Below are positions 15,348 through 47,048 of a stretch of DNA of 47,080 bases, in pieces (within the stretch, counting starts at the first letter, position 1; every line of letters begins with the position of its first letter). Below the pieces are notes generated by a model. It did not search any database, was not told the DNA's origin, and saw only the letters and a list, made by a program, of their open reading frames with translations. The position numbers and the translations under genes are program-made. Source of the stretch: Synergistaceae bacterium (GTDB taxonomy: Bacteria; Synergistota; Synergistia; Synergistales; Aminobacteriaceae); NCBI GenBank assembly GCA_017444345.1, contig JAFSWW010000055.1, forward strand, positions 1-47,080, given 5' to 3'.

Positions 15348-16250
15348 ATGCCGCTCGATACTGAAATATTAATTCTTGAGTTCGGAGCAAACAAGCCCGG
15401 AGAAATTCGCGAACTTACTGACTACTTCCCGCCCACTTTGGCAGTATTGACAGCTATTGAGCCCGTCCATCTTGAAGGATTCAAGACTCTTAGCGGTGTA
15501 TTGCGTGAAAAGCTCGAAATAACTAACTCGCCATTAATTGAAAGCATTGTTTATAATAACGATAATGCATTACTCAGCGAACATTTTAAATATGTCGTTA
15601 AATCAATGGGAGTCGGCGAATGGAAGGACTCGGATTTTGTAATCAGCCTCGATAATTCAGAATATAATTTGCCTGCTATGTCATTTGTCTTAGCTCACAG
15701 ACCGACTCAGGAAGTCGCGCGCTTTACTGCAAATGTATGGGGCCGTCATAACGTAATGCCTTTAGCTTTGGCCGCTTCAGTGGGTCATGAGTTAGGCATA
15801 AGATTACAGGACTCATCGGACGCGTTAAAAGATTTTGAGGCTTTATCAGGGCGGGGCAGAATAATATTCCCTGAAGAGAATAAATTTATAGTCGACGACG
15901 CATATAACGCGAACCCGGCATCAATGAAGGCATCACTTGAAACTTTTTCACGAGTCCAGACTTCCGGAAAAATAGCAGTGTTAGGCGACATGTTAGAACT
16001 CGGCGAAGATAAAATTTATTTTCACAAGGAACTAGAGCCGTTATTAGATGGGCTTGATAAAGTTATTCTTGTCGGAAGTTTATGGCGTGAGGCTTTGCAG
16101 GATAATGAGAGATATATTTTTGTACCTGACTGGCAGGGGGGCTTAAATGAATTAAGAAATCTCATGAATAATCTTGATTGGCACGGAATATTAATAAAGG
16201 CCTCTCAAAGTGTCGGACTTAGCAATATAGTAAAGGAAATCACAGCATGA
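15348..16250 (+). CDS. murF: MurF, C-terminal part, same frame as the N-terminal part
   Basis: This carries the rest of the central domain (ILEFGANKPGEIRELT, HLEGF, NNDN) and the C-terminal domain with the signature DDAYNANPASM, GDMLELG and ILIKASQSVGLSNIV. All 300 codons continue the frame of the upstream part, and sequence conservation resumes immediately after the TGA. Nothing else is broken, so the break looks recent or artefactual. If the ATG directly after TGA is used, ribosomes finishing the first part could restart here without a separate ribosome-binding site. Its own stop overlaps the mraY start as ATGA, so translation of mraY probably depends on it. Confidence 0.9.
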   Translation: MPLDTEILILEFGANKPGEIRELTDYFPPTLAVLTAIEPVHLEGFKTLSGVLREKLEITNSPLIESIVYNNDNALLSEHFKYVVKSMGVGEWKDSDFVISLDNSEYNLPAMSFVLAHRPTQEVARFTANVWGRHNVMPLALAASVGHELGIRLQDSSDALKDFEALSGRGRIIFPEENKFIVDDAYNANPASMKASLETFSRVQTSGKIAVLGDMLELGEDKIYFHKELEPLLDGLDKVILVGSLWREALQDNERYIFVPDWQGGLNELRNLMNNLDWHGILIKASQSVGLSNIVKEITA

Positions 16251-17170
16251 AATTTTTATACGCGTTAATTTTTCTAGTAATGAGTCTTGCGCTTCAATAT
16301 ATCTGGATAAAGATTCAGAGGCATATACACTTGACTCAACAGCAAAAATCCTACGGCGTAAATATAGAAGTCGAAATAAAATCAGCTACTCCTTCAATGG
16401 GGGGAGTAGTTTTTTTATGCTTGGCAATAATCGCATTAATTCTTGATTTTTCCGTTGACTCGTTAATATTCTGGTCATTGCCTGTCTTGAGCGGCGTTAT
16501 AGGCTTTATAGATGACTGGCTGAAATTCAGGACTCACACGAGCGAGGGATTTCGGAGTCTTTCAAAATTGAAGGCTCAATTAATTTTATGCGCTGTATGG
16601 GTAATAATTATATTTTTGCGCGGAAATTTGGCACTATGGCCGGGAGTTTATGATTTAGGGGGCTGGCTTGCGATTCCTGTAGCTTTCTTAATGACTGCGG
16701 GGACAATTAACGCAGTAAATATCACGGACGGACTTGACGGGCTTGCGACTGGGAGTTTTCTTATTTCGCTGGCTGTAATGCTTATATTAATTCCTGTTAA
16801 TGAGTTCAACGCAAAAATTTTGATTGAATTATTCTTTATGAGTGCCGGATTCTTATTCTTTAACACCCGGCCCGCAAAAACTTTCATGGGTGATACTGGC
16901 TCGCATTTTCTCGGAGGGGCTTTGGCTGCTTTATGCGTAATGAATGGCCGAACTCTTGCGATAATCCCGGCGGGATTTATATTTATTCTCGAAATGTTAT
17001 CATCGGCGATTCAGATTTTCACGATTCGCAAACTCAACAAAAAAGTTTTCTTAATGGCTCCGTTACATCATCACTATCAGAAAAAGGGACTTGACGAGAC
17101 GGCGGTAACTCTAAGATTCTGGCTCGTTCATGCGGTCGGCTCTGTGTTAATTTCGCTTGCTATGTTATGA
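16247..17170 (+). CDS. mraY: Phospho-MurNAc-pentapeptide transferase MraY
   Basis: MraY makes lipid I on the cytoplasmic face of the inner membrane. The protein (307 aa) has about ten hydrophobic segments and the family motifs: PSMGG near residue 50, the Mg-binding FIDDWLKF, KLKAQ, NITDGLDGLA, FMGDTGS and the His-rich APLHHHYQKKG. It is somewhat shorter than E. coli MraY (360 aa), as in other enzymes of this short form. The ATG overlaps the murF stop by 4 nt. The usual next genes (murD, ftsW, murG, murC, ftsQAZ) do not follow; a strong terminator does, so the cluster ends here. Confidence 0.95.
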   Translation: MKFLYALIFLVMSLALQYIWIKIQRHIHLTQQQKSYGVNIEVEIKSATPSMGGVVFLCLAIIALILDFSVDSLIFWSLPVLSGVIGFIDDWLKFRTHTSEGFRSLSKLKAQLILCAVWVIIIFLRGNLALWPGVYDLGGWLAIPVAFLMTAGTINAVNITDGLDGLATGSFLISLAVMLILIPVNEFNAKILIELFFMSAGFLFFNTRPAKTFMGDTGSHFLGGALAALCVMNGRTLAIIPAGFIFILEMLSSAIQIFTIRKLNKKVFLMAPLHHHYQKKGLDETAVTLRFWLVHAVGSVLISLAML

Positions 17171-17184
17171 AGGATTCAATTTTT

Positions 17185-17217
17185 AGCGGTGTCGTTAATG
17201 GCATCGCTATTTTTTTT
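17185..17217 (+). terminator. Intrinsic terminator after mraY
   Basis: A 7-bp stem (AGCGGTG at 17185-17191, CATCGCT at 17202-17208, one G-T pair) with a 10-nt loop, followed by A and eight T residues (17210-17217). It closes the rsmH-mraY transcript. Confidence 0.85.
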
Positions 17218-17231
17218 GCGAAAAATCTATC

Positions 17232-17260
17232 TTGAATATTATAATTTCTGTGAATATAAT
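17232..17260 (+). promoter_or_regulatory. Promoter of the surface-protein gene
   Basis: TTGAAT (17232-17237), an exact 17-bp spacer and TATAAT (17255-17260). The transcript would begin near 17267 and carry an AAAGGAG ribosome-binding site (17284-17290) before the ATG at 17303. Confidence 0.75.
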
Positions 17261-17302
17261 TACTAAACTTTAAAATATTATGAAAGGAGAAAAATTTTTA
17301 TA

Positions 17303-18994
17303 ATGTTACTTATGACCCCCCCCCCCCGTAAAATAACTGAAATTTTTAGGAGATATTTTTTCATAGCAATAATAAAAAAGTTTTTGCTTCTATGTTTGAT
17401 TATCTTGCTGGGAGCTTTTCCTGCGTGGAGTCAGACTTATACTGTCAATAATATAAATGGACTCACCAACACGCTGAGTAGTGCAAATGATGGAGATATA
17501 ATTATCCTTGCTTCAGGTGATTATGATTTAGACAGCACACTCACAATCAATAAATCAATCACTCTTAGGGGCAATACTTCAAGCGACACAATAATACAGC
17601 GTTCGAGCAGTGCAACCAGCAAATTTAGAAATATAAATATATCAGGAAGTGCTGTTATACTTCAAAACTTGACAATTCAGAATGCTAGTTCTAATGCTGA
17701 CGGCGGTGGAATTTATTATAATGTGAGTAATGGTACTCTCAGTATTGATAACTGCATTATAACCAACAATGCTGTCGGTAGTAGCTACTCCGGCGGCGGA
17801 ATTTATAGCGGCGGCATTGTAACTATCACGAATTCCACTATAACAGACAACAATGCAAACAACGGCGGCGGCGGGATTTTTAACGAAAGCACGGCAACTA
17901 TCACGAACTGCACTATTACAGAAAATACGGCAAACAACGACGGCCAAGACATTTATACTAGTACTAATATCTCAGCACTAAATACGCTAATATGGAATTC
18001 TGTATTGAATGAGAATGATGTTATATATGGTACTGTCAATCTAACAAATTGCGCAACGCCCAGCGGAATCGGCACTAATCCCGTTACATTAACTTCATGG
18101 TCTAATCCTGTATCATCAAGCGTAGAAGTAAACGGCGTGACTCATACAGTTTTTACGATTGAGAATAACACGGAATTACAAGGACTCGTGGGCAAGGGCA
18201 TACAAAGCGGCGACCAGACTCCGGCAACAGACCAGATCGGAACTCTCCGCGCAAGTAAGCCGACAATTGGAGCTATTGAGGGAGCTAGTATATCTGTTAT
18301 TACAATTTCATGCGATGTCGATACACTGGAAATTACAAAAGGTTATTCACGAGATATTACTCTTAGTGCGGACTTGGAAGATGATTATAAAGAATGGCCA
18401 ATCAGCTGGAGTATTTCTCCTGATGTCAGCGGCATTACAATATCAAATGACGGCGTTTTGACAGTGGGCGAAAGTGTCGCAGTGGGAGTTTACAGCGTTG
18501 ATATTATTGCGGCTATAACGAGTGGGGACGAGTCTTATTCGGACAATAAAACAATCACAGTGAGTGTATATCCGTATCCTGTTATAGTAATTTCGCAGGC
18601 CTCAGCGTCAGGAACAGCAGGGAGCGCATTTACTCAAACATTAACAGCAAATATAACAGTCAACAGCGCAGACTATACAGTAACGCCCGTATGGAGTTAT
18701 TCAGGAAATTTGCCGGAGGGAATTAGACTCAGCAATGATAAATTTGTAGGAACTCCGACACAAAGCGGCGATTATGAAATTACTATAAAAGTTTCTGCGG
18801 ACGTTACTACAATTGACAGCCATGATATTATTATTTCAAGTGAGAAAACTCTCACGCTAAATATATCAGCTGCAACGGTTACTATTTCAGGGACTCCGGC
18901 ACAGTCGGGGAATATAAATTTTTCTGCACATTCAGTGCAACGCCTAACACTCTTACTTACACATGGAGCGCGTCAGGACTTCCCAGAGAGTTAA
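17303..18994 (+). CDS. Surface beta-helix/Ig-like protein, 5' part of a frameshifted gene
   Basis: The first part of a very large secreted protein. After MLLMTPPPRK comes a basic segment and a signal peptide (about residues 25-43, ending AWSQ). Next are polymorphic-outer-membrane-protein-like repeats (about 60-230) with GGGIYSGG, GGGGIFNES and TITNCTIT turns of a right-handed beta-helix. From about 310 on there are Ig-like domains with the GTPTQSGDYEITIKVS block of putative Ig (He_PIG) repeats. The frame breaks at about 18926-18931; the last residues here are out-of-frame noise up to 18994. The codons for Pro come from a run of 12 C (17316-17327). With 11 or 13 C the protein would stop within a few codons, so expression should be switchable. 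Confidence 0.85.
   Translation: MLLMTPPPRKITEIFRRYFFIAIIKKFLLLCLIILLGAFPAWSQTYTVNNINGLTNTLSSANDGDIIILASGDYDLDSTLTINKSITLRGNTSSDTIIQRSSSATSKFRNINISGSAVILQNLTIQNASSNADGGGIYYNVSNGTLSIDNCIITNNAVGSSYSGGGIYSGGIVTITNSTITDNNANNGGGGIFNESTATITNCTITENTANNDGQDIYTSTNISALNTLIWNSVLNENDVIYGTVNLTNCATPSGIGTNPVTLTSWSNPVSSSVEVNGVTHTVFTIENNTELQGLVGKGIQSGDQTPATDQIGTLRASKPTIGAIEGASISVITISCDVDTLEITKGYSRDITLSADLEDDYKEWPISWSISPDVSGITISNDGVLTVGESVAVGVYSVDIIAAITSGDESYSDNKTITVSVYPYPVIVISQASASGTAGSAFTQTLTANITVNSADYTVTPVWSYSGNLPEGIRLSNDKFVGTPTQSGDYEITIKVSADVTTIDSHDIIISSEKTLTLNISAATVTISGTPAQSGNINFSAHSVQRLTLLLTHGARQDFPES
17316..17327 (+). repeat. Poly-C tract (12 C) in codons 5-9 of the surface-protein gene
   Basis: Twelve C in a row in an AT-rich region, immediately after ATG-TTA-CTT-ATG-A. 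With 12 C the frame is open; with 11 C it reads to GTA-AAA-TAA, and with 13 C to CCG-TAA. This is the layout of a phase-variable contingency locus. Confidence 0.85.
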
Positions 18995-21609
18995 CGCTCA
19001 ATGAGAACACAGGCGAATTATCAGGAACTCCTACGAAATCAGGAAGCTATCCTATAACAGTTATAGCGACTTCACCCGGCGGAACTGGAACAGCAAATTA
19101 TACGCTTGAGATAAGTTCTTCAGGCAGTCCGAGCTATTCATACCCTCAAACAGGAAAAAGAACAGAATCTCATAATCAGACCGATTCAACAACGGGCGAG
19201 GCATATTCTGAAACTTTCTCGACATTTAACGAGGTTGACTCAGATTCGGGCGGGACTCAAACGGCGACAGGATATATTATTGCTTCAGTCGACATAAAGA
19301 TTATCACTAAGGCCAACGAATTAAGCGGGGTTGCCGGCTATGATTTTGCAGAACCTGTAAAATTTTACGTGAATATCTCGCAAGATTCAGAGTATAATTA
19401 TACAAATTATGATCTTTCTGTTGATATATCGAATCTTCCCGACGGCTTTGAGGTCAGCGGCGACAAAGAATTTAATAATATTTCGTTTGATTCGCATGAC
19501 TTCACGATTTATATCAAGGGACTCACGAATTCGAGTTTTACGCAAGATAATATAATAATTTCTGCCTCCGTTGTAGTATCAGGCGATAACCCAGTTTTAA
19601 TAACTTCAGCAGATCACAATATATCAATCAACATTGCGGCCGGAATTCTCACAAGTTCAACTTTGAGCGTTAATGATTCAGCAATTGAAGGCGTATTCAC
19701 AGAAAAATTTGCGCCTTCTATGGATTTAAGCGGCGTAGTATCTGACGTAACCGGAAATTTCAGCGATGGAACGAGTCAAAGTATCAAGAATTCAAGCACT
19801 ATTACATTTTCTAGTTCTTCACTTCCGGACGAATTCACTATAGACGGCTCTATATTGCAAATTTCAGAGTCTGCGGCGGCGGGATCTTATGATATTTCCA
19901 TAACTGCAACGGCTAATAACAACGGCATAACATCATCAGGCACTAAAAATATAAGCGTTAGTCTTTATTCATACCCGACTATAACAATTAATACAAGTGA
20001 AATAGCAGCGGGCAAAATCGGCGAGAATTATTCTCAAACTTTCACAGCAAGTGCAATTGTAAATAATTCTGACGCGTCAATAACTCCGACATGGATTCTC
20101 GAAAATGGCACATTACCGGCGGGGCTTGTGTTAAATTCTGAAGGCACGATTTCAGGGACTCCGACACAAAGCGGCTCATTTGACATTAATATAAAAGTTT
20201 CTGCAGATGTTACAACGGTTGACAATCATAATATAATTATCTCGGCTGATAAAGAATTTATTTTGTCGATAATAGCAAGTGAAGATTTTAATATTCAAAT
20301 TGTCTCGTGTGAAGTAACTTTATCAGGAAATAACGAAATCACCCTAACTGAAGGCACGGGAGGGAGTTTGACATTTACGCCCGTTGTAAGTGCTCATTAC
20401 AGCGACGGCTCAGAAAGACTCTTAACGCCCGGCGAATACTCATACACATGGACAATTAATGAAAATTTCCTGACAATTTACAGAATGAGCTTCAATAATG
20501 GGACTCTCACAATCAGCGAAAACACCCCGGCCGACAAATATAATATCGCAGCAACTATAAATATTTCTGTGAATAATCTTACAGCGTCGGCAAGCAAATA
20601 TTTTAATGTTGTCATAGAGTCTAAATCAGGCGCACAAAGCAAAGATTTTATAATTGATGTAGGAGGCGACGGCGAGTCTGTTACTCTCACAATTAATAAT
20701 AATTCAGGGAATCCTGTAGAGTCTCTTGCTGATATAACAAATAAATTATCTCAAGCTGAGAAAGAGTTAATCACAGAAATCGACTTGAATAATAACACTA
20801 CTATTAAAGATTTAGCGGGTATTACTGAATTCAAGAATTTAAGTTCACTCAATGCGGGAGGCTGTGAATCTCTCAAAGAAGTAGACGTAAGAGGCTGCAA
20901 CAAACTGGAATATCTTGATGTATCTTCGTGCGATATAGAAATTTTATTAGTTGACGGCTGCGAATCTTTACGCGAGTTAATTTGCGGTAATAACTTAATA
21001 GAAACTCTTGACTTAAGCACATGCCCAAATCTTGAAGTTCTTGACTGCCAAGCTAACAATCTTTCAGAGCTCAATATCGAGTCAAATAATTTATTGATAG
21101 AGATAGATTGCAGCTATAATAATTTGCCCGCGCTTGATATTGCAGAAAGTTTCTTTACACTCTTGAATAACTTAATTTGCAACGGTCAAGAAATTTCCGG
21201 AGTAAATGCAGAGTTAGACGGCGATGTTTACCGCATAAATATTAATACTCTCGGCAATGTCTCTAACAGTGATATAGAAATCTCGGCGAATCCTTCAACG
21301 AGCGCGATAATGCCAGACAAAATTTATAACGTGAAAGCCTATAATAATGCCGGTGAAGAAATTATAATAAATTATGACTCTAAAACGGGAATATTTGAGT
21401 CGTCTCAACAGCCGGCAAGCATAAAATATTATTACATTACAGGCTTTGAAAATATAGATATGGACGTTACATTGCAAATTACAGGAGAAGACCCGGCACC
21501 GACTCCGACTCCGACACCTGATAATCAATTTACAAGCGGCGGAGGTTGTAATTCTGCGTTCGGGTTGATTTCGTTAATGGCTCTTGCTATGTTCAGACGG
21601 AAAAAATAA
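18931..21609 (+). CDS. Surface Ig-like/LRR protein with Synergist-type C-terminal sorting signal, 3' part
   Basis: This is the continuation of the gene starting at 17303, shifted by one base. The readable frame begins at about 18931 (FSATPNTLTYTW, then SGLPRELTLN and SGTPTKSGSYPITV), with no start codon of its own. The first internal ATG-like start is at 19369 (GTG), but domain continuity shows it is not the natural start. Several more Ig-like domains follow (GTISGTPTQSG near 20140), then a leucine-rich repeat of about 8 turns (20800-21170, with Cys-rich LxxLxxxxCxxL units), a Pro-Thr spacer (PTPTPTP), and the terminal SGGGCNSAFG, hydrophobic helix and FRRKK. That ending fits the Synergist C-terminal sorting signal, which suggests processing and surface attachment. 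Confidence 0.8.
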   Translation, partial: FSATPNTLTYTWSASGLPRELTLNENTGELSGTPTKSGSYPITVIATSPGGTGTANYTLEISSSGSPSYSYPQTGKRTESHNQTDSTTGEAYSETFSTFNEVDSDSGGTQTATGYIIASVDIKIITKANELSGVAGYDFAEPVKFYVNISQDSEYNYTNYDLSVDISNLPDGFEVSGDKEFNNISFDSHDFTIYIKGLTNSSFTQDNIIISASVVVSGDNPVLITSADHNISINIAAGILTSSTLSVNDSAIEGVFTEKFAPSMDLSGVVSDVTGNFSDGTSQSIKNSSTITFSSSSLPDEFTIDGSILQISESAAAGSYDISITATANNNGITSSGTKNISVSLYSYPTITINTSEIAAGKIGENYSQTFTASAIVNNSDASITPTWILENGTLPAGLVLNSEGTISGTPTQSGSFDINIKVSADVTTVDNHNIIISADKEFILSIIASEDFNIQIVSCEVTLSGNNEITLTEGTGGSLTFTPVVSAHYSDGSERLLTPGEYSYTWTINENFLTIYRMSFNNGTLTISENTPADKYNIAATINISVNNLTASASKYFNVVIESKSGAQSKDFIIDVGGDGESVTLTINNNSGNPVESLADITNKLSQAEKELITEIDLNNNTTIKDLAGITEFKNLSSLNAGGCESLKEVDVRGCNKLEYLDVSSCDIEILLVDGCESLRELICGNNLIETLDLSTCPNLEVLDCQANNLSELNIESNNLLIEIDCSYNNLPALDIAESFFTLLNNLICNGQEISGVNAELDGDVYRININTLGNVSNSDIEISANPSTSAIMPDKIYNVKAYNNAGEEIIINYDSKTGIFESSQQPASIKYYYITGFENIDMDVTLQITGEDPAPTPTPTPDNQFTSGGGCNSAFGLISLMALAMFRRKK

Positions 21610-21623
21610 TTTGATTTAAGCAA

Positions 21624-21663
21624 TAAAAAAATTCCCCGGTGAGATTCGCTCCCATCGGGGAAT
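21624..21663 (-). terminator. Intrinsic terminator after the rpiR-type gene
   Basis: The stem ATTCCCCG (21631-21638) with CGGGGAAT (21656-21663) is followed on the minus strand by seven T (plus-strand A run 21624-21631). It may also slow plus-strand transcripts from the surface gene, which ends at 21609. Confidence 0.85.
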
Positions 21664-21674
21664 AATATTATATT

Positions 21675-22550
21675 CTAGTAACGCAATCTATAAGCAGGGA
21701 AGTAAATTCGTTCGTCGCTTAAATTCTCTTTTTGTGCGGCGAGTGCTTTCTCTCCTTCAGTGCCCATCTTTCGCGCTAATACAGTCGTCAATACATGTAC
21801 TGCAAACATTGAGCCTATAAGGCTGCTTCCAAATAAAGGCGCTCTATCACTCACAAAAAACTGCATGTCCGCATATGAACACACAGGAGCGGCGGGGCTG
21901 TCAGTTATTACGGCGATTTTGCAATTAGTGCGTGAAGAAATTTCTTTAACTGACTCGGCTACTTCTATTACGTAACTCGGCAGCTCACACACAATTAACA
22001 TGTCATTTTTTCTGATTCCTCTTGCTTGTTCTAATAAAGATAGAGACCCCCTGCGCATTAAAACACTCTTGAGTCCAAGTTCCGCGAATCTCGTATAAAG
22101 CCACTCTGCAGGCATTGAAGAAATACCCCAGCCCATACAGTAAATTACATCGGATTTGATGACTGACTCGCAAAAATTAGTTACTCCTTCATGATTGACT
22201 ACAAGATTTCTGCAAGTTTCATGAATATTAGCTTGTTCAAGTTTCGCTAATTCTTCCGGACTCTCGTCGCCCAAATCTGAATATATTTCTGAAGTCGGGT
22301 TAATTTGCTTTAATAATTTCTGCTTAAGTGTATTCTTGAGATCCGCATAACCTTCAAAGCCGAGCATTCTCGAAACCCTCACAAGCTGCGCCCTTGAGAC
22401 TGATAATTTATCTGCTGTCTCGCTTATAGATTGGAAGGCTGCTTCAGAGGGATTTGCAAGTAGATACTCAGCCACGCGTCTTGTTTTTGCCGGGAAGTGA
22501 TTTAATCGGCTTCTGATTCTTTCTTCGAGTCGTTTAATGTCCATTGTCAA
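21675..22550 (-). CDS. MurR/RpiR-family transcriptional regulator
   Basis: A 291-aa regulator with an N-terminal RpiR helix-turn-helix domain (about 1-80, including SISETADKLSVSRAQLVRVS and GFEGYADLKN) and a C-terminal SIS sugar-phosphate-binding domain (about 125-255, with VIYCMGWGISSM, DMLIVCELPSY and CKIAVITDS). RpiR proteins sense phosphorylated sugars or amino sugars and control their catabolism. The target is unknown: no sugar-phosphate operon is adjacent, though kduD-kduI lies 12 kb away. The start overlaps the upstream OB-fold gene by 17 nt, so both are in one transcript, which is an unusual pairing. Confidence 0.88.
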   Translation of the reverse strand: MTMDIKRLEERIRSRLNHFPAKTRRVAEYLLANPSEAAFQSISETADKLSVSRAQLVRVSRMLGFEGYADLKNTLKQKLLKQINPTSEIYSDLGDESPEELAKLEQANIHETCRNLVVNHEGVTNFCESVIKSDVIYCMGWGISSMPAEWLYTRFAELGLKSVLMRRGSLSLLEQARGIRKNDMLIVCELPSYVIEVAESVKEISSRTNCKIAVITDSPAAPVCSYADMQFFVSDRAPLFGSSLIGSMFAVHVLTTVLARKMGTEGEKALAAQKENLSDERIYFPAYRLRY

Positions 22551-23115
22551 TACTCGCGCACCTCACGTAATTTACTCCGCTGCCCCTCGATGAGCGCAAA
22601 GTGCCTGTAACGCTTACGGGGTCGGAGTCATTCATGCCCGTTAAAATTTTTCGTAAATTTTCGTCGTAAACTCTCACAACAAGAAAATCACGCCTTGCAT
22701 GTCCGTCTAATTCTTGATTTTCCTGTCTTACTGCAAAACGTGTATATTTGCCCGTGCCTGTTTCGCCTTCTGCCTGAGCCTTGATAGTATGCACAAATCC
22801 CGAAATTTTTACGCTGTTTTCGAGTGTGCCTAATTCTTTAAGCTCTTCAACTTCTAAGACAGCAAGATATAATTCACCGCTGCCCTTTGACGAACGCAGA
22901 ACGCCCTTAACTTTCACGGGGGTATTCTCGGCCATAGCTCTTAATTTTTCCTGAACTTCTGAAGGAAACGCCCGAGCATTCAAGAAATCTTTGCGTGTTG
23001 TCCCGTCGCTCCATAAATTCTCGTGTCTGACTGCAAACGGGAAGTATTTTGCTGACTTCTTACCGCTCAAGTGATGAACAAGGCCGGATAAAATAACCTC
23101 GTTTAAATGATTCAT
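22534..23115 (-). CDS. Tandem OB-fold, SSB-like protein
   Basis: A protein of 193 aa made of two similar halves (about 1-92 and 97-190). Each runs through a strand (EVILSGLVHHL or SVKISGFVHTI), a YFPFAVRHEN or YTRFAVRQEN block, an RKDFLNARAF or RRDFLVVRVY block, and a VKGVLRSSKGSGE or VTGTLRSSRGSGV block. The pattern is that of single-stranded DNA-binding OB folds (PriB/SSB type). The acidic C-terminal tip that recruits partners in canonical SSB is absent. The duplication suggests that one chain does the work of two subunits. It has an AAGGATG ribosome-binding site. It is co-transcribed with the RpiR gene, which starts within its last codons. Confidence 0.7.
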   Translation of the reverse strand: MNHLNEVILSGLVHHLSGKKSAKYFPFAVRHENLWSDGTTRKDFLNARAFPSEVQEKLRAMAENTPVKVKGVLRSSKGSGELYLAVLEVEELKELGTLENSVKISGFVHTIKAQAEGETGTGKYTRFAVRQENQELDGHARRDFLVVRVYDENLRKILTGMNDSDPVSVTGTLRSSRGSGVNYVRCASIDNGH

Positions 23116-23132
23116 TGGGTATCATCCTTTCT

Positions 23133-23162
23133 ATTGTAGAAATTTGTAACACTTCTCTGTAA
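23133..23162 (-). promoter_or_regulatory. Candidate promoter of the OB-fold/rpiR pair
   Basis: Read on the minus strand: TTACAG, an 18-bp spacer, then TACAAT (plus-strand ATTGTA at 23133-23138). This leaves a leader of about ten bases with the AAGGATG site. It is divergent from the phosphomannomutase promoter. Confidence 0.45.
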
Positions 23163-23250
23163 TTTTACTACACTTTACATAATAAATTAAATCACGATAT
23201 TTGCTATATAATTTTACGGACATAATTATAATAAATTTTTTGCTTAAATA

Positions 23251-23279
23251 GTGAAATACTCACAGTTTTATTCTATAAT
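23251..23279 (+). promoter_or_regulatory. Promoter giving a probably leaderless phosphomannomutase mRNA
   Basis: GTGAAA (23251-23256), a 17-bp spacer, TATAAT (23274-23279). The ATG of the gene is at 23289, only nine bases after the -10 box, so transcription should begin at or within a few bases of the start codon. No ribosome-binding site precedes the ATG. Confidence 0.6.
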
Positions 23280-23288
23280 TCTATCATT

Positions 23289-24674
23289 ATGACAAATATA
23301 CCATTAAATATTTTCCGCGAGTATGACATACGCGGACAAGCAGACAAAGATTTAACAGATCAGACAGTGAACGCAATCGGGCGGGCTTATGGGTCATGGC
23401 TGATTCGTTCAGGCGTTGAGGGTGCTATAACAGTCGGAGGCGACGCAAGATTATCTACTCCACGAATTAAAGACGCGCTAATAAAGGGAATTCTTTCTTG
23501 CGGACTCGATGTTATTGACGTGGGACTCGTTACGACTCCTATGCTTTATTGGAGCTTGATTAAATTCGGAGTCAAAGGCGGAGTCATGATTACAGGCTCA
23601 CACAATCCCCCCGATATGAACGGCCTAAAATTATGCTTTGAGCACGGGACTTTATACGGTGAAGATGTCAAGAATATCGGCAAAATCGCGCAGTCAGAAT
23701 TTTTTGAGTCAGGGCAGGGCAAATTGAATCACGTAAATATTGATAATGATTATATAAAAATGTTGTTGTCAAAATTTATACTGCCATTCAACAAAAAATT
23801 TAAAGTCGTTCTTGACTCTGGCAACGGAGCAGCAGGGCCTACAGCTAGAAAATTTTTCGAGGGACTGGGCTGTGAAGTAATCTCATTATTTGATAAGCCG
23901 GACGGGAATTTTCCGAATCATCACCCTGACCCGCAAAAAAGTGAGAACTTGCAAATCTTAATCAACCGTGTTAAATCAGAACATGCTGATATAGGATTCG
24001 GCTTTGACGGCGACGCAGATAGAATCGGAGTAATCGATGACGAGGGCAATATAATTTTTTGCGATAGACTCATGTGTCTTTACTGGAAGGAAATTTTACG
24101 GACTAATCCCGGCGCAGTCGTCTTAGTTGAGCCTAAATGCAGTATGATTTTACCCGAATCAGCTGAGAAATACGGCGGGCAAGTTTTATACTGGAAATCG
24201 GGGCATTCACTCATAAAAGCTAAGATGCGCGAGACAGGGGCATTATTTGCGGGCGAATATTCGGGACACATGTTTTTTGCTGATGAGTTTTTCGGGCATG
24301 ATGACGCGTTTTATTCGGCCGGGCGTTTATTGCGGATAATGTCGGACGAGCAGAAATCTTTATCACAGTTAATGCAGGAATTCCCGCTTTACCCGTCAAG
24401 TGAAGAGATCAGAATCCCCTGTGATGATAATACAAAATTTCAAGTTGTCTCAAGAATTCAGGAGAAGGCGCAGAAAGATTATCAATGCAGCATAATTGAC
24501 GGCGTTAGAATTCTTTATCCTGACGGCTGGGGCTTGATTCGAGGCTCAAACACGCAGCCCGTTATAGTTGTAAGATGTGAGGGACGAGATAAAGACTCGC
24601 TCATGAGAATAGCAGACGACGTAAAATCAAGAGTCTTAGCTGAAGGACTGCCCGATTTCACATGGACATTTTAA
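23289..24674 (+). CDS. Phosphomannomutase/phosphoglucomutase
   Basis: An alpha-D-phosphohexomutase of 461 aa (ManB/AlgC type) that interconverts hexose 6- and 1-phosphates for surface sugar nucleotides. The four domains are clear: the active-site serine loop TGSHNPPDMNG, the Mg loop GFDGDADRIGV, the sugar-binding loop GEYSGHMFF and the phosphate loop RGSNTQPVIVVR. The N-terminus NIFREYDIRGQ is typical. The start is fixed by homology at MTNIPLNIF, yet it has no ribosome-binding site and sits nine bases after a perfect -10 box. The gene overlaps trmB by 13 nt. Confidence 0.93.
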   Translation: MTNIPLNIFREYDIRGQADKDLTDQTVNAIGRAYGSWLIRSGVEGAITVGGDARLSTPRIKDALIKGILSCGLDVIDVGLVTTPMLYWSLIKFGVKGGVMITGSHNPPDMNGLKLCFEHGTLYGEDVKNIGKIAQSEFFESGQGKLNHVNIDNDYIKMLLSKFILPFNKKFKVVLDSGNGAAGPTARKFFEGLGCEVISLFDKPDGNFPNHHPDPQKSENLQILINRVKSEHADIGFGFDGDADRIGVIDDEGNIIFCDRLMCLYWKEILRTNPGAVVLVEPKCSMILPESAEKYGGQVLYWKSGHSLIKAKMRETGALFAGEYSGHMFFADEFFGHDDAFYSAGRLLRIMSDEQKSLSQLMQEFPLYPSSEEIRIPCDDNTKFQVVSRIQEKAQKDYQCSIIDGVRILYPDGWGLIRGSNTQPVIVVRCEGRDKDSLMRIADDVKSRVLAEGLPDFTWTF

Positions 24675-25600
24675 GCGCGACAACTAATGCGAGGCCGCAA
24701 TATGGAGTAATAATTTATCCTGAAGGCGGCTTTGTATTGCCCGTAAAATCTCACACTGAATTAGAAATCGGCTTCGGCAACGGAGAATTTACTGTACAAT
24801 ACGCAAAGAATCACCCTGAAATTTTTTTATACGGTATAGAAATTTCTCAATCCTGCGTGCTTAGGTGTGCTAGGCGGGCTTATGGGCTCGAAAATTTGCG
24901 GATAATTAACACTGATGCCCGTTATATGCTCAAAGAATTATTTGACGACGAGTCACTAAATAAAATTATTATGCAATTTCCTTGTCCGTGGTCAGGGAGT
25001 TCGAACGCTCATAGACGAGTTACTGCGAAATGTTTTGCTGATGGACTCGCGGCTGTTCTTAAAATTGGCGGCATATTTGAATTTATTTCAGATGACAGCG
25101 AATATTCACAAGAAGTAAAAAATGTTTTAGGGAGTCACGAGGCTTTGAATAATATCAGCTTTGAAGTCAACCCCGCGCGCGAAATCACGACAAAATACGA
25201 GCGTAAATGGCTTGAAGAGGGCAAAAATATTTACAGGCTCGAATTCATGAAGACAAAGGCATTTACAACTATAAGGCAGGTCAACACACAGGAAATGCAC
25301 ATTAAAATCAATAAATTAATCACGAGTCAAGATATAGAGAAAGTGCGCAATATTACAGGCAAGGACTCCGAGAAAAAATCATTCTGGAAATTTGGCCGGA
25401 ATTTCATAGACAGCAATAATACAAGCTGGCTAGTTGAGACTCTGACAAGTGATGACGAGTTCGAACAAAAATTTTATATGAATATTTCTCACAAAGAAGG
25501 CGGATTCTCACTTGTTAGGCTTGATAAGACGGCGGACGCGTTTTTGACTCCGGCAGTTAGAGCAGCAATTACCGACGCAGCTAATAAATTATCACAATAA
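24662..25600 (+). CDS. trmB: tRNA (guanine(46)-N(7))-methyltransferase TrmB with C-terminal extension
   Basis: TrmB uses SAM to make m7G46 in tRNA. The SAM motif EIGFGNGEF, the YGIEI strand, the NTDARYML block and the C-terminal TKYERKW motif identify it. The usual FPDPWPKxRHxKRR block reads FPCPWSGSSNAHRR here, so the strongly conserved Asp is Cys. About 90 residues beyond the normal end (from about residue 215) form an extra domain of unknown role. At 312 aa it is much longer than the usual 200-240. Loss of the Asp could lower or change activity; homologues from the same group would show whether it is lineage-wide. It overlaps the phosphomannomutase gene. Confidence 0.85.
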   Translation: MDILSATTNARPQYGVIIYPEGGFVLPVKSHTELEIGFGNGEFTVQYAKNHPEIFLYGIEISQSCVLRCARRAYGLENLRIINTDARYMLKELFDDESLNKIIMQFPCPWSGSSNAHRRVTAKCFADGLAAVLKIGGIFEFISDDSEYSQEVKNVLGSHEALNNISFEVNPAREITTKYERKWLEEGKNIYRLEFMKTKAFTTIRQVNTQEMHIKINKLITSQDIEKVRNITGKDSEKKSFWKFGRNFIDSNNTSWLVETLTSDDEFEQKFYMNISHKEGGFSLVRLDKTADAFLTPAVRAAITDAANKLSQ

Positions 25601-41687: not shown

Positions 41688-44600
41688 ATGTTAAATAAGT
41701 TTATGGCTATGAGAATGAAAATATTTATTCTTGTCATGATTCTTTGTTCGTTTGCTTGTCCTGTCTTGGCCGGTGAACTGAAAGCAATATCGGGCGACGA
41801 AAAAATTTCACTGCTTGAGCCTGTACAAGTTAATTTACCTGTTCAGATTGAAAACGTGAAATCTTCAGCAGAGTCAGATCACAAGCCGGGCGAATTTATT
41901 GTAATGTTCAGGGAGAATATTTTAGAGGGCAGCGGAGACTCTCATGACTCACGAGTTAAAAATTTTGTTCAAGCACTAGGAGTCGAAATTATAAGCACTT
42001 ATCCCGCATTATCTAAACAGGCCGGACAAGTTTTTGCGCTAGTTCATGCGGATTCTAAATCAGAAAGTGAAATGCTCGAAGAATTACAGGCAAATCCAAA
42101 TGTCTTAGGTGTAAGTCTGAATTATAAGACTCATGCTTTAACGACTCCGAACGATAAATATTATAGCCAGCTCTGGGGAATGAGCGCAATTAAAGCCGAT
42201 AAATTATGGGATCAAGGCTACACAGGAGCAAGCGATATTTATGTTGCAGTCCTTGACTCGGGAATTTCGTACAATCATGAAGATTTAGCGGCAAATTTTG
42301 AGTCTTCAGGTTTCAGCAAAAATTTTAGTTCAACATCAAATTATTCTGACGGGGACGGACACGGGACTCACGTATCAGGCACAATAGCAGGCGTGGGCAA
42401 TAATTCAATCGGAGTCGCCGGTGTAAACTGGAAGGCAAAATTAATCGCTGTAAAAGTTCTTGACAATAACGGAAACGGTTATTTCAGCTGGATTCTTAAC
42501 GGGTTAAATTATCTTTGTGAGCTTCTCGACAATCACCCGGAAATAAATCTAGCGTCAATAAATTTATCACTGGGCGGCTATATGAGCACTTCTCCGCAGG
42601 AAATGAAAAGCTCTAATAATCCGACTTGGGTAGCTTTTAAGGCAATCAGCGATAAGAATAAAGCTGTAATTTGTGTAGCTGCAGGAAATGAAAAGATTCA
42701 GGTCGGCGCAAATACTTCTAAAGGTTATTGTTATCCTGCGTCATTAATTGACATTGATAATATGATAGTTGTAGCTGCGTCTGATAATAATTCGAGTTAT
42801 TCGCGCTCGTCATTCAGCAATTACAGCACTCAATATGTAGACGTTGCAGCACCGGGCAGGGGGATTTATAGCTCACTCCTGAATAATTCATATGGAAATC
42901 TCAGCGGGACTTCAATGGCTACACCTCATGTTACAGGAGCGGCGGCCTTGCTGCGTTCAATCTTCCCGAATACTACAGCGAGCGAGATAAAATCTGCAAT
43001 TATTAACGGTGCTAATAAGAATTACGCGACAAGTTACACAAAATACGGCTTTCTTGATGTAAAATCCGCGTTTGATATTCTCTCAAAAAATAATACACCT
43101 TCAAGTCTTGCGCCGGTTATTGAGACTGATTCACTAGATGACGCTACAATCGATAATTATTACAGCGCGACTCTTTCTGCGTCAGGAGCAAAATATATTA
43201 CATGGTCTCTTGAAAGCAGCTATAAAGATTTGCCCGATGGTATGAACTTTTCTTCAATGGGTATAATTTCAGGGACTCCGACAACAGCAGGGACTTATAC
43301 TTTTACGGTAAAAGCTAGTAATTTATACGGGAGCGCAAAGAAAACATTAACTCTTACTGTTAAGGATATTGACAAAGCTCCTATTATTCAAAATAGCGAA
43401 TTACCGGACGGATCTATTCAGGAATTCTACAGCGCGAGTCTTTATGCTTCAGGAACGAGTCCTATTACATGGAAAATTTCAAGCGGGAGTCTTCCAACTG
43501 GGTTAAATCTTGACTCATCGACGGGAATAATCAGCGGTGCACCGTCAAAAGCAGGTACGTTTGAATTCGCAGTTAAAGCAAGCAATAATACAGGCTCAGA
43601 CACAAAAAATTATTCACTCACAATAGAGGGAATTGCGCCGCAAATTTTGACTCTTATGTCGCTAAGAAATGCAGTACTCGGACAATATTACAGCGAAAAA
43701 CTTGAGGCAATAGGAACAGGCCCAGTTACATGGAATCTTTACAGCGGGAGTCTTCCGAACGGGTTAAAATTAAACTCTTCAACCGGAGTAATCAGCGGCA
43801 CTCCTAGAGAATCAAGCGATTCAAGCTACAATTTTGTTATTACCGCGTCAAATGCAGAAGGCTATGACTATGTAGAATTCTCTATGTATGTCGATGATAT
43901 GAGCACTAAATCAGGAATAAATATAAAAACGGAGACTCTGCCCTATGTGTTCTATAATCAGCCCTATTCTGCAAAACTCGAAGCAACGGGAACTAAGCCC
44001 ATAACATGGTCAATCATAGAAGGCTCTTTACCGGATGGAATAACTTTAGAGTCAGACGGCACACTCACGGGTTTAGGCTCATACGGTGAGGGCTTCACGG
44101 AAATTAAAGTCCAAGCGTCAAACTCTAAAGGCTCAATCACGAAAAATTTAACAGTGAGATATACAGCTTTGCAGACCCCTCAGGAGTTCGTGCGCGAGTC
44201 TCTTCCCGACGGCATAAAGGGCAGCGAATACAATCAATATTTATACATGATAGGTTACAGCCCATTTTATTTTGACGTGAAAGAAGGCACATTACCGCCC
44301 GGATTAATTTTGAACAGTGAAGGCTACATAACAGGGACTCCGACAAAATCAGGAAGTTATACATTTACAATTCGCGGGACTTGTCAATATAGCGGCTGGG
44401 GACTCTATGATATCAAGACATTCACGATCACTATACGAGATAACGAAAAAAAGCCCTCAATAACTAGCAAAAATTTACCCGACGGGACTAACGGACTAAT
44501 TTATAATACCGGGCTTAAATATTCGGGCACTCATGATATTAGCTGGACTTGTGATTATGACTCGCTGCCGCCGGGACTTTATCTGGCTGGAGACGGCGAT

Positions 44601-47048
44601 TTGATTTCAGGAATTCCCACGCAGGCAGGCACTTATACATTCAATATTTACGCGGAAAATTCGGCCGGTTCTGCTTCTCAATTATTAACTATAAAAATTA
44701 ACGATGTCCCGAATTATGCGAATCACGAAATTTTGACGGATTCAGATTTAGGCACTTATTCACAAGGCAGCTATTATGCTTTCACTTTTTCTGCTGACGA
44801 GGGCGCGACATGGACTCATACAGACGGAAATATACCCGACGGAATGACTTTCTATAAATATGGGATTCTTTCAGGACGGCCGGCTGAAACTGGAGAATTT
44901 AATTTTACTGTGAGTGCCTTATTTGACGATGATATAAGCGTATCAAAAAATTTCAAGATCGTAATCTCAAGTGCTGCTCCAGTTATAGAGTCTAACTCAA
45001 AACTTGATCCCGGCACAGACGGCGAGTCATATAATTATGAGTTAAAGGCATCGGGCGCGGAGTCTTTCACGTGGGAATTGAAATCCGGTTCATTGCCTGA
45101 AGGTTTAGAGCTTGACTCAACTGGTATAATTTCAGGAATTCCGACACAAACGGGCAAATTTAATTTTATAATTCAAGTAAATAACTCTTATGGGAGCGAC
45201 TCGCAAAATTTCACACTCACAATAAAAGCAGCTGCACCAGTCATAACAAGCGAGACTCTTTCAGACGGCAAAATCGGCGAGTATTATAATTCTGAATTAC
45301 AGGCTACAGGCTCGACTCCTTTAAAGTGGTCAATCAGCGGACAATTTCCTAAGGGCTTAAAACTCAACGCAAGCACGGGGCAAATTACAGGAACTCCGAC
45401 AAAAGCAGGGACATTTACATTTACTGCAAAAGTTAAGAACTCAGGAGGCAATGACTCAAAGTCTTTCACTATAGAAATTTCTTTACCTGATAACGCCGTC
45501 CCAGTCATAAACGATGACTCGTTAATAAATCCTGAAGCAGGCAAATATTACTCTCATCAATTTACAGCGGCCGGAATAAATCCTATCACATGGACGAAAA
45601 TAGCGGGGCAAATTCCTTCAGGTTTGAAGCTCAATAAATCGGGCTTGCTTGCCGGGACTCCTAAACAGTCAGGCGAATTTGATTTTACTATCAAAGCAGC
45701 TAACAAATACGGCAATGATACGAAATCTTATACTTTGAGAATAACGCCCGTTATAATCACAAGCAAATTAAACTCTGGAATATTCAATAAATCATATAGT
45801 GCCGCTTTGAGTGTTCAGGGGTCAAAGTCTAATATAATTTGGCAAGTCGTCTCGGGTTCATTGCCTGAAGGGTTAAAGCTCAACGAGTCAACCGGCAAAA
45901 TTTCAGGGAAGCCGACAAGTTCAGGCGAATATAATTTTACAGTCCGTGCTGAAGTCGAGAATGTAACGCCCGCCCTTTACGATGAGCAGTCATACACGAT
46001 AAAGATAACGGGAATAGCTCCTAAAATTAATACGTCGAGTCTCAAGAAAGGCACGATTAATAAAGATTATTCAGCAGCAATCAAGACTACAGGATCTACA
46101 CCCATGAATCTGGAAATCAGCGGACTCCCTGAAGGACTCTCACTGAACTATGACTCTGAAACAGGACAAGGCACAATTACAGGAACTCCGACTGAATGCG
46201 GAAATTTCAGCGTGAAATTAACGGCCTCAAACGAGACTAATACGACATCAAGAACGTTCAATCTTGTAATAAATAATATAAAGCCGTCATTTACTTCTTT
46301 GAGCTTACCTGATGCAATTATCGGGCAGTCTTACTCGGCAAATATTCAGGCTACAGGAGCAGCAAAGGGCGATAATTTGAGCTTTACTCTTTCATGGTCG
46401 GGCAAAAATATTGGCGGATTCACTCTTGATAATTCTGACGCGTCAATAACAGGGACTCCCGCTGAGACTTCAGGAAAGAATTTCAACGCGCCGGGGACTT
46501 ATAGAGTCAAAGTCATTGCTAAGAATTCAGCCGGGACAAAATCAAAAACTTTCAAGATAAAATTAAACGCTGCGCAAATTACAGAAGTCGAGAGTGCGCA
46601 AAAAGTTTTATCAGAGTCAGAGTTTGAGTCTGAGTCAGAGTCATTAAGCTCAATTTTTCCAGATAATCAAGAAAGTAACGCGCAAAAATTATCATTTCTC
46701 GAAAATTTTGCAGGAAACAATAAAGACTTTACCGCAGGAGATCTTGCAGAAATTGACGGAAAGAAATACATTATTGCGGCTGTTATTGCGCCTGTTAAAT
46801 CACTAGAATCAGGACAATTTGATTTTAACGTCGAATTAAGCGAGAAAGCTCCGACGGGGGCAAAATTAACCTGGCTTGCATGTCCTTATGACAGCGAGGA
46901 CTCACAGGATGACGAGATAGCTGACTTTTACGACGAGACAGGCAAAGAAATTTTTACAGTTCCGGAGAGTCATTCAATAACAGTGTCTCCGTGGCTGCGT
47001 AAATGTGTGATTTATGAGCCTTTGATATTGGCCGAGATTATGGAATAA
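41688..47048 (+). CDS. Giant secreted subtilisin-like protease with Ig-like repeats
   Basis: A protein of 1786 aa. Signal peptide at about 8-28 (ending VLA); propeptide with an inhibitor_I9-like region (about 66-145). The S8 catalytic domain (about 155-465) has Asp190 in VAVLDSGI, His225 in GDGHGTHVSG, Asn334 in AAGNE and Ser409 in GTSMATPHV, so it should be active. After it come about 13 putative-Ig (He_PIG) repeats of about 85-100 residues, each with a GxISGTPTxxGxYxFTVxAxN-like core. A Ser-Glu linker (from a GANTC array) and a C-terminal beta domain follow. It lacks the Synergist sorting tail seen at 21609. It probably degrades extracellular protein, in keeping with the amino-acid lifestyle of the group. 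Confidence 0.92.
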   Translation: MLNKFMAMRMKIFILVMILCSFACPVLAGELKAISGDEKISLLEPVQVNLPVQIENVKSSAESDHKPGEFIVMFRENILEGSGDSHDSRVKNFVQALGVEIISTYPALSKQAGQVFALVHADSKSESEMLEELQANPNVLGVSLNYKTHALTTPNDKYYSQLWGMSAIKADKLWDQGYTGASDIYVAVLDSGISYNHEDLAANFESSGFSKNFSSTSNYSDGDGHGTHVSGTIAGVGNNSIGVAGVNWKAKLIAVKVLDNNGNGYFSWILNGLNYLCELLDNHPEINLASINLSLGGYMSTSPQEMKSSNNPTWVAFKAISDKNKAVICVAAGNEKIQVGANTSKGYCYPASLIDIDNMIVVAASDNNSSYSRSSFSNYSTQYVDVAAPGRGIYSSLLNNSYGNLSGTSMATPHVTGAAALLRSIFPNTTASEIKSAIINGANKNYATSYTKYGFLDVKSAFDILSKNNTPSSLAPVIETDSLDDATIDNYYSATLSASGAKYITWSLESSYKDLPDGMNFSSMGIISGTPTTAGTYTFTVKASNLYGSAKKTLTLTVKDIDKAPIIQNSELPDGSIQEFYSASLYASGTSPITWKISSGSLPTGLNLDSSTGIISGAPSKAGTFEFAVKASNNTGSDTKNYSLTIEGIAPQILTLMSLRNAVLGQYYSEKLEAIGTGPVTWNLYSGSLPNGLKLNSSTGVISGTPRESSDSSYNFVITASNAEGYDYVEFSMYVDDMSTKSGINIKTETLPYVFYNQPYSAKLEATGTKPITWSIIEGSLPDGITLESDGTLTGLGSYGEGFTEIKVQASNSKGSITKNLTVRYTALQTPQEFVRESLPDGIKGSEYNQYLYMIGYSPFYFDVKEGTLPPGLILNSEGYITGTPTKSGSYTFTIRGTCQYSGWGLYDIKTFTITIRDNEKKPSITSKNLPDGTNGLIYNTGLKYSGTHDISWTCDYDSLPPGLYLAGDGDLISGIPTQAGTYTFNIYAENSAGSASQLLTIKINDVPNYANHEILTDSDLGTYSQGSYYAFTFSADEGATWTHTDGNIPDGMTFYKYGILSGRPAETGEFNFTVSALFDDDISVSKNFKIVISSAAPVIESNSKLDPGTDGESYNYELKASGAESFTWELKSGSLPEGLELDSTGIISGIPTQTGKFNFIIQVNNSYGSDSQNFTLTIKAAAPVITSETLSDGKIGEYYNSELQATGSTPLKWSISGQFPKGLKLNASTGQITGTPTKAGTFTFTAKVKNSGGNDSKSFTIEISLPDNAVPVINDDSLINPEAGKYYSHQFTAAGINPITWTKIAGQIPSGLKLNKSGLLAGTPKQSGEFDFTIKAANKYGNDTKSYTLRITPVIITSKLNSGIFNKSYSAALSVQGSKSNIIWQVVSGSLPEGLKLNESTGKISGKPTSSGEYNFTVRAEVENVTPALYDEQSYTIKITGIAPKINTSSLKKGTINKDYSAAIKTTGSTPMNLEISGLPEGLSLNYDSETGQGTITGTPTECGNFSVKLTASNETNTTSRTFNLVINNIKPSFTSLSLPDAIIGQSYSANIQATGAAKGDNLSFTLSWSGKNIGGFTLDNSDASITGTPAETSGKNFNAPGTYRVKVIAKNSAGTKSKTFKIKLNAAQITEVESAQKVLSESEFESESESLSSIFPDNQESNAQKLSFLENFAGNNKDFTAGDLAEIDGKKYIIAAVIAPVKSLESGQFDFNVELSEKAPTGAKLTWLACPYDSEDSQDDEIADFYDETGKEIFTVPESHSITVSPWLRKCVIYEPLILAEIME
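46614..46642. repeat. GANTC hexamer array inside the protease gene
   Basis: GAGTC sites at 46614, 46626, 46632 and 46638 (46620 is GAGTT) keep a 6-nt phase and encode an alternating Ser-Glu linker before the last domain. Confidence 0.8.

Follow-up and report, generated by a model that had tools for sequence, protein, structure and literature searches.

A poly-C tract at the start of a predicted surface-protein gene belongs to a genus-wide set of C/G tracts in Synergistaceae, about half of which adjoin an AT-rich dyad

The window, a stretch of 47,080 nucleotides from a Synergistaceae bacterium (assembly GCA_017444345.1, contig JAFSWW010000055.1; the genome is designated G000), carries a gene for a predicted secreted surface protein with a homopolymeric run of C at its very start. 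The gene is located just 3' of mraY, and genes of the rpiR regulator type, the phosphomannomutase type and the tRNA-methyltransferase type follow on its other side. The features of the locus are as follows:

17178-21625, no strand: segment of about 4.45 kb that spans the entire surface gene; the nearest relative, G016, lacks it at this position
17283-17289, + strand: AAAGGAG, resembling a ribosome-binding site, 13 nt upstream of ATG 17303
17303-17314, + strand: two in-frame start codons, ATG 17303 and ATG 17312, directly 5' of the tract
17303-18994, + strand: open reading frame of 563 residues opened by 12 C, with a signal-peptide-like start and beta-helix-like repeats
17316-17327, + strand: poly-C tract of 12 C that starts at codon 5; predicted site of slippage, with 12 as the ON length
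17328-17343, + strand: GTAAAATAACTGAAAT, the window copy of a GTAAWTTAC-like dyad, matrix score 12.06
18890-18940, + strand: second frame break, in the middle of a He_PIG-like repeat that goes on in another frame
18901-21609, + strand: remainder of the gene, read in the other frame, with He_PIG repeats, leucine-rich repeats and a C-terminal sorting-like end

The tract is bounded by A17315 on one side and G17328 on the other, and no other C/G run of at least 7 occurs in the window. Under a first-order Markov model fitted to the fetched stretches of the genome, only 0.009 runs of at least 12 are expected in the whole 2.33 Mb. The two ATG codons lie 13 and 4 nt upstream of the tract, and the leader sequence has a single occurrence in G000. 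Past the tract, the frame that contains both ATG codons stays open for 554 codons, against 2 and 0 codons in the other two frames. This bears out an earlier reading of the sequence alone (the sequence-only reading), according to which 12 C opens the frame and 11 or 13 C halt it within a few codons. That reading had also considered a true start 3' of the tract. Such a start is unlikely, because the sole in-frame candidates among ATG, GTG and TTG in the 100 nt past the tract are TTG codons within the hydrophobic core of the signal peptide, and a reading of these 100 nt revealed no ribosome-binding site just 5' of them.

The 563-residue open reading frame begins with a basic stretch, followed by a hydrophobic segment that resembles a signal peptide by eye (17381-17431). 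Its Pfam Beta_helix match reached 17.6 bits, under the cut-off of 25.9 bits. The position of the second frame break was judged by where the sense of the repeat switches frame, and no long homopolymer is present at this break, near 18.9 kb. Above the Pfam cut-off, the remainder of the gene matched He_PIG (68.5 bits) and LRR_4 (27.5 bits), and the top NCBIfam match of its last 35 residues was Synergist_CTERM (TIGR04564), at 14.7 bits under the cut-off of 22.5 bits. Because the rest of the gene, up to position 21609, is in another frame, no single tract length yields the full protein in this assembly, and 12 C gives a truncated product. Here the window gene has its ON length, yet the second break, which may be either a genuine mutation or an error of the draft, cuts it short. 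A search of 42 other genomes of the genus found homologues of the first part of the protein in 40, most of them short matches or matches to the repeats only. Two of the better homologues, from G007 and G009, carry G12 and G13, respectively, on the coding strand near their starts. Elsewhere in the window (41688-47048), a subtilase-type protein of 1786 residues contains 13 He_PIG repeats and has no C/G tract.

On either side of the gene, the window aligns at 89-90% to the nearest relative. Positions 15684-17177 and 21626-25161 match adjacent stretches of G016 (L251 1-1494 and 1486-5001), and in none of the 42 congeners did the alignment run past mraY into a gene at this place. Since G016 is contiguous across the site and no congener aligns into the gene, the whole gene, its tract included, is a lineage-specific segment of about 4.45 kb.

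Long C/G runs are in large excess in this genome. G000 contains 46 runs of at least 9 (44 by pattern), against 1.3-1.7 expected. They are 9-18 bases long, these lengths, like those of the other species, coming from one draft assembly per genome or species, in which runs can be miscalled. Many of them lie at surface genes, which is where the sequence-only reading had suggested looking for further runs. Runs of at least 10 were present in 23 of 24 congeners searched, with up to 35 per genome, whereas among 16 genomes of other families nine had 1-5 and seven had none. The nearest relative has only 3 such runs in an assembly of about 350 pieces, so tract turnover is probably fast. In G000, 27 of the 46 tracts lie within an open reading frame of at least 100 residues, and seven are found in the last tenth of the frame (L036, L049, L050, L051, L053, L055, L056). 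The genes at tracts carry the Pfam domains FkbM and TylF (both methyltransferases), glycosyltransferases 1, 2 and 6, LicD, AlgX and EpsG, as well as GNAT, epimerase, nucleotidyltransferase, PEP mutase, solute-binding protein and hybrid histidine kinase domains. These are typical envelope functions, sugar-nucleotide genes among them, and other tracts lie near the starts of flagellin and surface-protein genes.

Some further features of the set were noted. The C9 run at L058 was counted as a tract, lacks the dyad and may be there by chance. Two predicted surface proteins near tracts (L042:993-3158 and L046:1496-2953) gave weak Leukocidin/Hemolysin Pfam matches of about 28 bits. Four G000 contigs (C17, C31, C42 and C91) start or finish at a C/G run of 14-18. 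In three of them a similar sequence, A-Y-TACTCGA..., stands past the run, a context unlike the dyad.

Both open and broken copies of tract genes were observed. Some genes are open through the tract, while others break exactly there. The frame of the start and the frame of the domain disagree at the tract in L032 (at its second tract), L034, L048, L053 (FkbM) and L054, where a single nucleotidyltransferase domain is spread over two frames. Ten orthologous sites share the tract, and when G000 was compared with other species at these sites, the lengths were unequal in 10 of 13 cases. At the site between pepA and licD, the tract reads C14, C8, C10, C10 and C12 in the five species concerned. This tract (L031:5113; orthologues L100, L105, L114 and L103) lies within a conserved leader frame that is short and has a start codon; past the tract this frame stays open for 35-39 codons. 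In one of the five species the start is in frame. The leader stops near the beginning of licD, an arrangement that may point to coupled translation of licD. Among the named Synergistaceae loci (pepA relatives; rumen and reticulum metagenome-assembled genomes, including Synergistes sp.), no tract of at least 9 was found after pepA. For the comparison locus L057, no orthologues were found.

An AT-rich dyad is found 3' of the C run, within about 5 bases, its clearest form being GTAAWTTAC followed by K-N-A. The clearest copy, TTGCGTAAATTACGTA, accompanies a C13 tract (L040:3044-3056) located 43 bp before the gene of a 987-residue flagellin. The regular expression GTA-N2-5-TRC matched within 5 nt of the C run in 46 of 100 tracts from five species. 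The other side of the run gave 3 matches in 100 tracts, random places in the stretches concerned matched at 0.8-1.4%, and the 7 tracts of other families had none. The five species include G017, G005, G003 and G004, of which part of the listed tracts was fetched. Motif searches with 99 tracts at several widths scored 697-716 downstream of the run, 413-437 on the other side and 359-390 at random places. With a matrix built from 58 tracts of four other species, 23 of 42 G000 tracts scored above the 99th percentile of the controls; the other four of the 46, which lie too near a contig end, were omitted. A clear dyad is lacking in about half of the tracts, and in G003 it is present in just 3 of 13.

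For the window copy, the score of 12.06 was obtained with this 58-tract matrix, and 0.0001 of control places scored as high. With matrices from G000 only or G017 only, 7% and 65% of controls, respectively, were as high, and with pooled matrices 46% at 10 columns and 3.1-0.7% at 12-16 columns. As one matrix scores the site high and the others lower, its membership in the dyad family is likely, not firm.

Where the dyad falls in coding sequence, each of the three codon phases is represented (16 tracts scoring above 6), and intergenic tracts have it as well. The use of three phases suggests that the dyad acts at the level of DNA. Its sequence drifts among species yet stays dyad-like (L059 versus L153). 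Away from tracts it occurs at about 1.4-1.9 times the random expectation and its information content is low; given this ratio, it forms part of the setting of the tracts and is no rare signal. A strict tract-plus-dyad pattern gave 0 matches across the collection, the pattern being stricter than most sites are and the collection possibly lacking records near the window's genome. Several origins of the motif were rejected. A cause at the protein level does not fit the three codon phases and the non-coding tracts with a dyad. A stop-codon trap fails because the coding strand mostly carries G, which places the dyad before the tract, where it cannot end out-of-frame products. A DNA hairpin seems unlikely since, by eye, the loop left by the dyad is too short.

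One gene, coding for a flavin oxidase and present in many congeners, provided a series in which copies with and without a tract could be compared. It comprises 13 sequences, of which 12 were scored and one, the truncated L204, was omitted. The tract is present in four species and missing from eight of the scored orthologues. The dyad score was above the 99th percentile in all four tract-bearing copies, one of which was in the training set, and below it in all eight tract-less copies; the tract-less copy of G017 had an intermediate score. Coding lengths with and without the tract are no more than 1-3 alignment columns apart. Since these lengths hardly differ, the tract and dyad of this one gene probably evolved in place, with nothing inserted.

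Campylobacter and Helicobacter represent a repair-poor state. In the present genus, unlike those two, mutS and mutL were each found above the cut-off in 34 of 41 genomes, with which slippage is still compatible. As both families are present, loss of mismatch repair across the genus was rejected, and the tracts do not owe their existence to a general absence of repair. In G000 itself, mutS (C138:229-2749, L248) lies in two frames split at about C138:2009, while it is whole in most congeners. No homopolymer was found at the junction, and the split could be a draft error or the mark of a natural mutator.

For the set of tracts, the mechanism with the best support is slipped-strand translational phase variation of surface genes, which we consider very probable. 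The C run would gain or lose bases during replication. At 12 C, the start codon or codons of the window gene would be linked to the secreted protein, and lengths that do not return to this frame would end translation within a few codons. The window tract would belong to an extensive poly-C/G phasome of a rumen-type Synergistaceae genus, aimed mainly at genes for surface glycans, lipoproteins and other envelope components, and the tracts of this genus would tend to carry the GTAAWTTAC-K-N-A dyad directly 3' of the C run. The tract and its frames, the genomic excess, the gene classes, the ON and OFF copies, the lengths in different species and the dyad enrichment are observations; slippage as the mutation and switching within the population are what we infer. 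For the window gene, the claim of a phase-variable contingency tract of a secreted surface protein remains the best reading, with strong backing from the genome and the genus. The sequence-only reading is supported in part: even at the ON length the second break leaves only the first 563 residues, no relative offers an orthologous tract for a comparison of length, and membership in a genus-wide family with a flanking motif lay outside what that reading could see.

That break near 18.9 kb, together with the absence of the gene from the nearest relative, would also fit a decaying pseudogene in which the tract has no function now. However, one error in the draft assembly could account for the break, and all other downstream domains stay open for 900 codons, so we regard decay as possible but doubtful. 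The runs themselves might be artefacts of assembly or sequencing, for example poly-G of two-colour chemistry, and 4 of the 46 are indeed located at a contig end or no more than 15 bp from one. An artefact would hardly place the same runs at orthologous positions in separately assembled genomes with both flanks matched, nor would it be mostly confined to one genus and accompanied by a sequence motif, and this explanation is highly improbable. The origin of the tracts is a separate matter. Tract and dyad could be a small mobile or copied cassette inserted into many genes. Two unrelated loci (L036:4555 and L060:2971) have 38 bp in common at 89%, tract and dyad included, which may reflect copying, and the consensus reaches to the other side of the run as TAATR. 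Against this, the flavin-oxidase site, the one site compared, shows a difference of a few columns and no inserted cassette, and after this comparison a mobile cassette was rejected as a general explanation. The location of the L043 tract, which we take to be where members of the family carry a PPE stretch, also counts against a cassette. The targets of diversity-generating retroelements are marked by a G/C run and an inverted repeat; such an element was rejected since the 96% complete G000 genome contains no RVT_1 (PF00078) match, a result that speaks against the cassette as well. Altogether, we consider a cassette improbable.

Slipped-strand phase variation could also involve the dyad as a working part of the switch. 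A protein bound to it, or the dyad itself hindering the polymerase, would raise slippage, and the cell would thereby pick its hypermutable sites. This is in line with the enrichment at tracts over random places, the other side of the run and the tracts of other families, and with the higher motif-search scores downstream. The three codon phases and the intergenic tracts leave protein sequence no explanation of the dyad, which moreover tracks tract presence across the 12 flavin-oxidase orthologues and keeps its dyad form while drifting between species. On the other hand, around half of the tracts, and most of those of G003, have no clear dyad, the motif is low in information and mildly over-represented away from tracts, and one of the four tract-bearing flavin-oxidase orthologues belonged to the training set. 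The dyad may also mark where tracts survive. We hold a working role to be unlikely. Bolder, and rather unlikely in our estimate, is the proposal that the genus marks its contingency tracts with a cis-acting dyad, such that slippage would be directed by a sequence signal, probably through a putative binding protein, and not by length alone.

Poly-G/C phasomes are well known in Campylobacter, Helicobacter and Neisseria, and many Campylobacter tracts lie in surface-glycan genes. In the open-licence literature we found no report of phase variation in Synergistota or Synergistaceae and no description of a flanking dyad at such tracts. The present set would add a very large poly-C/G phasome in Synergistaceae, in members that are gut commensals with mismatch-repair genes. 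In Neisseria, poly-G/poly-C switching of surface proteins is described (PMC5084427), and there, as in the window, the homopolymer adjoins the start codon of an exported protein; the genus-wide repeat repertoire of Neisseria is different, and the available text of that paper does not mention a shared dyad. The available text on Helicobacter canadensis (PMC2823697) describes poly-G near gene starts, before genes and in last codons, where slippage alters only the C-terminus; the seven tracts found here in the last tenth of a reading frame resemble this C-terminal switching. Unlike here, a flanking motif is not reported in that text, in which 'flanking' and 'motif' have 0 occurrences.

As far as the main text of the PhasomeIt study goes (PMC6321876), poly-G/C is the main repeat type in Campylobacter, where a genome has tens of tracts and most of them lie within reading frames, with homologues differing in length and a core of phase-variable genes joined by rare ones, all of which applies here too. 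The two differ in phylum and in tract length, 9-18 here against mostly 9-10 G there. They also differ in the dyad beside the tract, since the main text of PMC6321876 contains no 'motif' and one 'flanking', which concerns open reading frames. The same work names as an open question the origin of poly-G tracts and the reason for their presence at those particular genes. For this question, the recurring dyad offers a concrete and cheap test, and the flavin-oxidase series provides a probable case of a tract arising in place within a coding sequence rather than by insertion.
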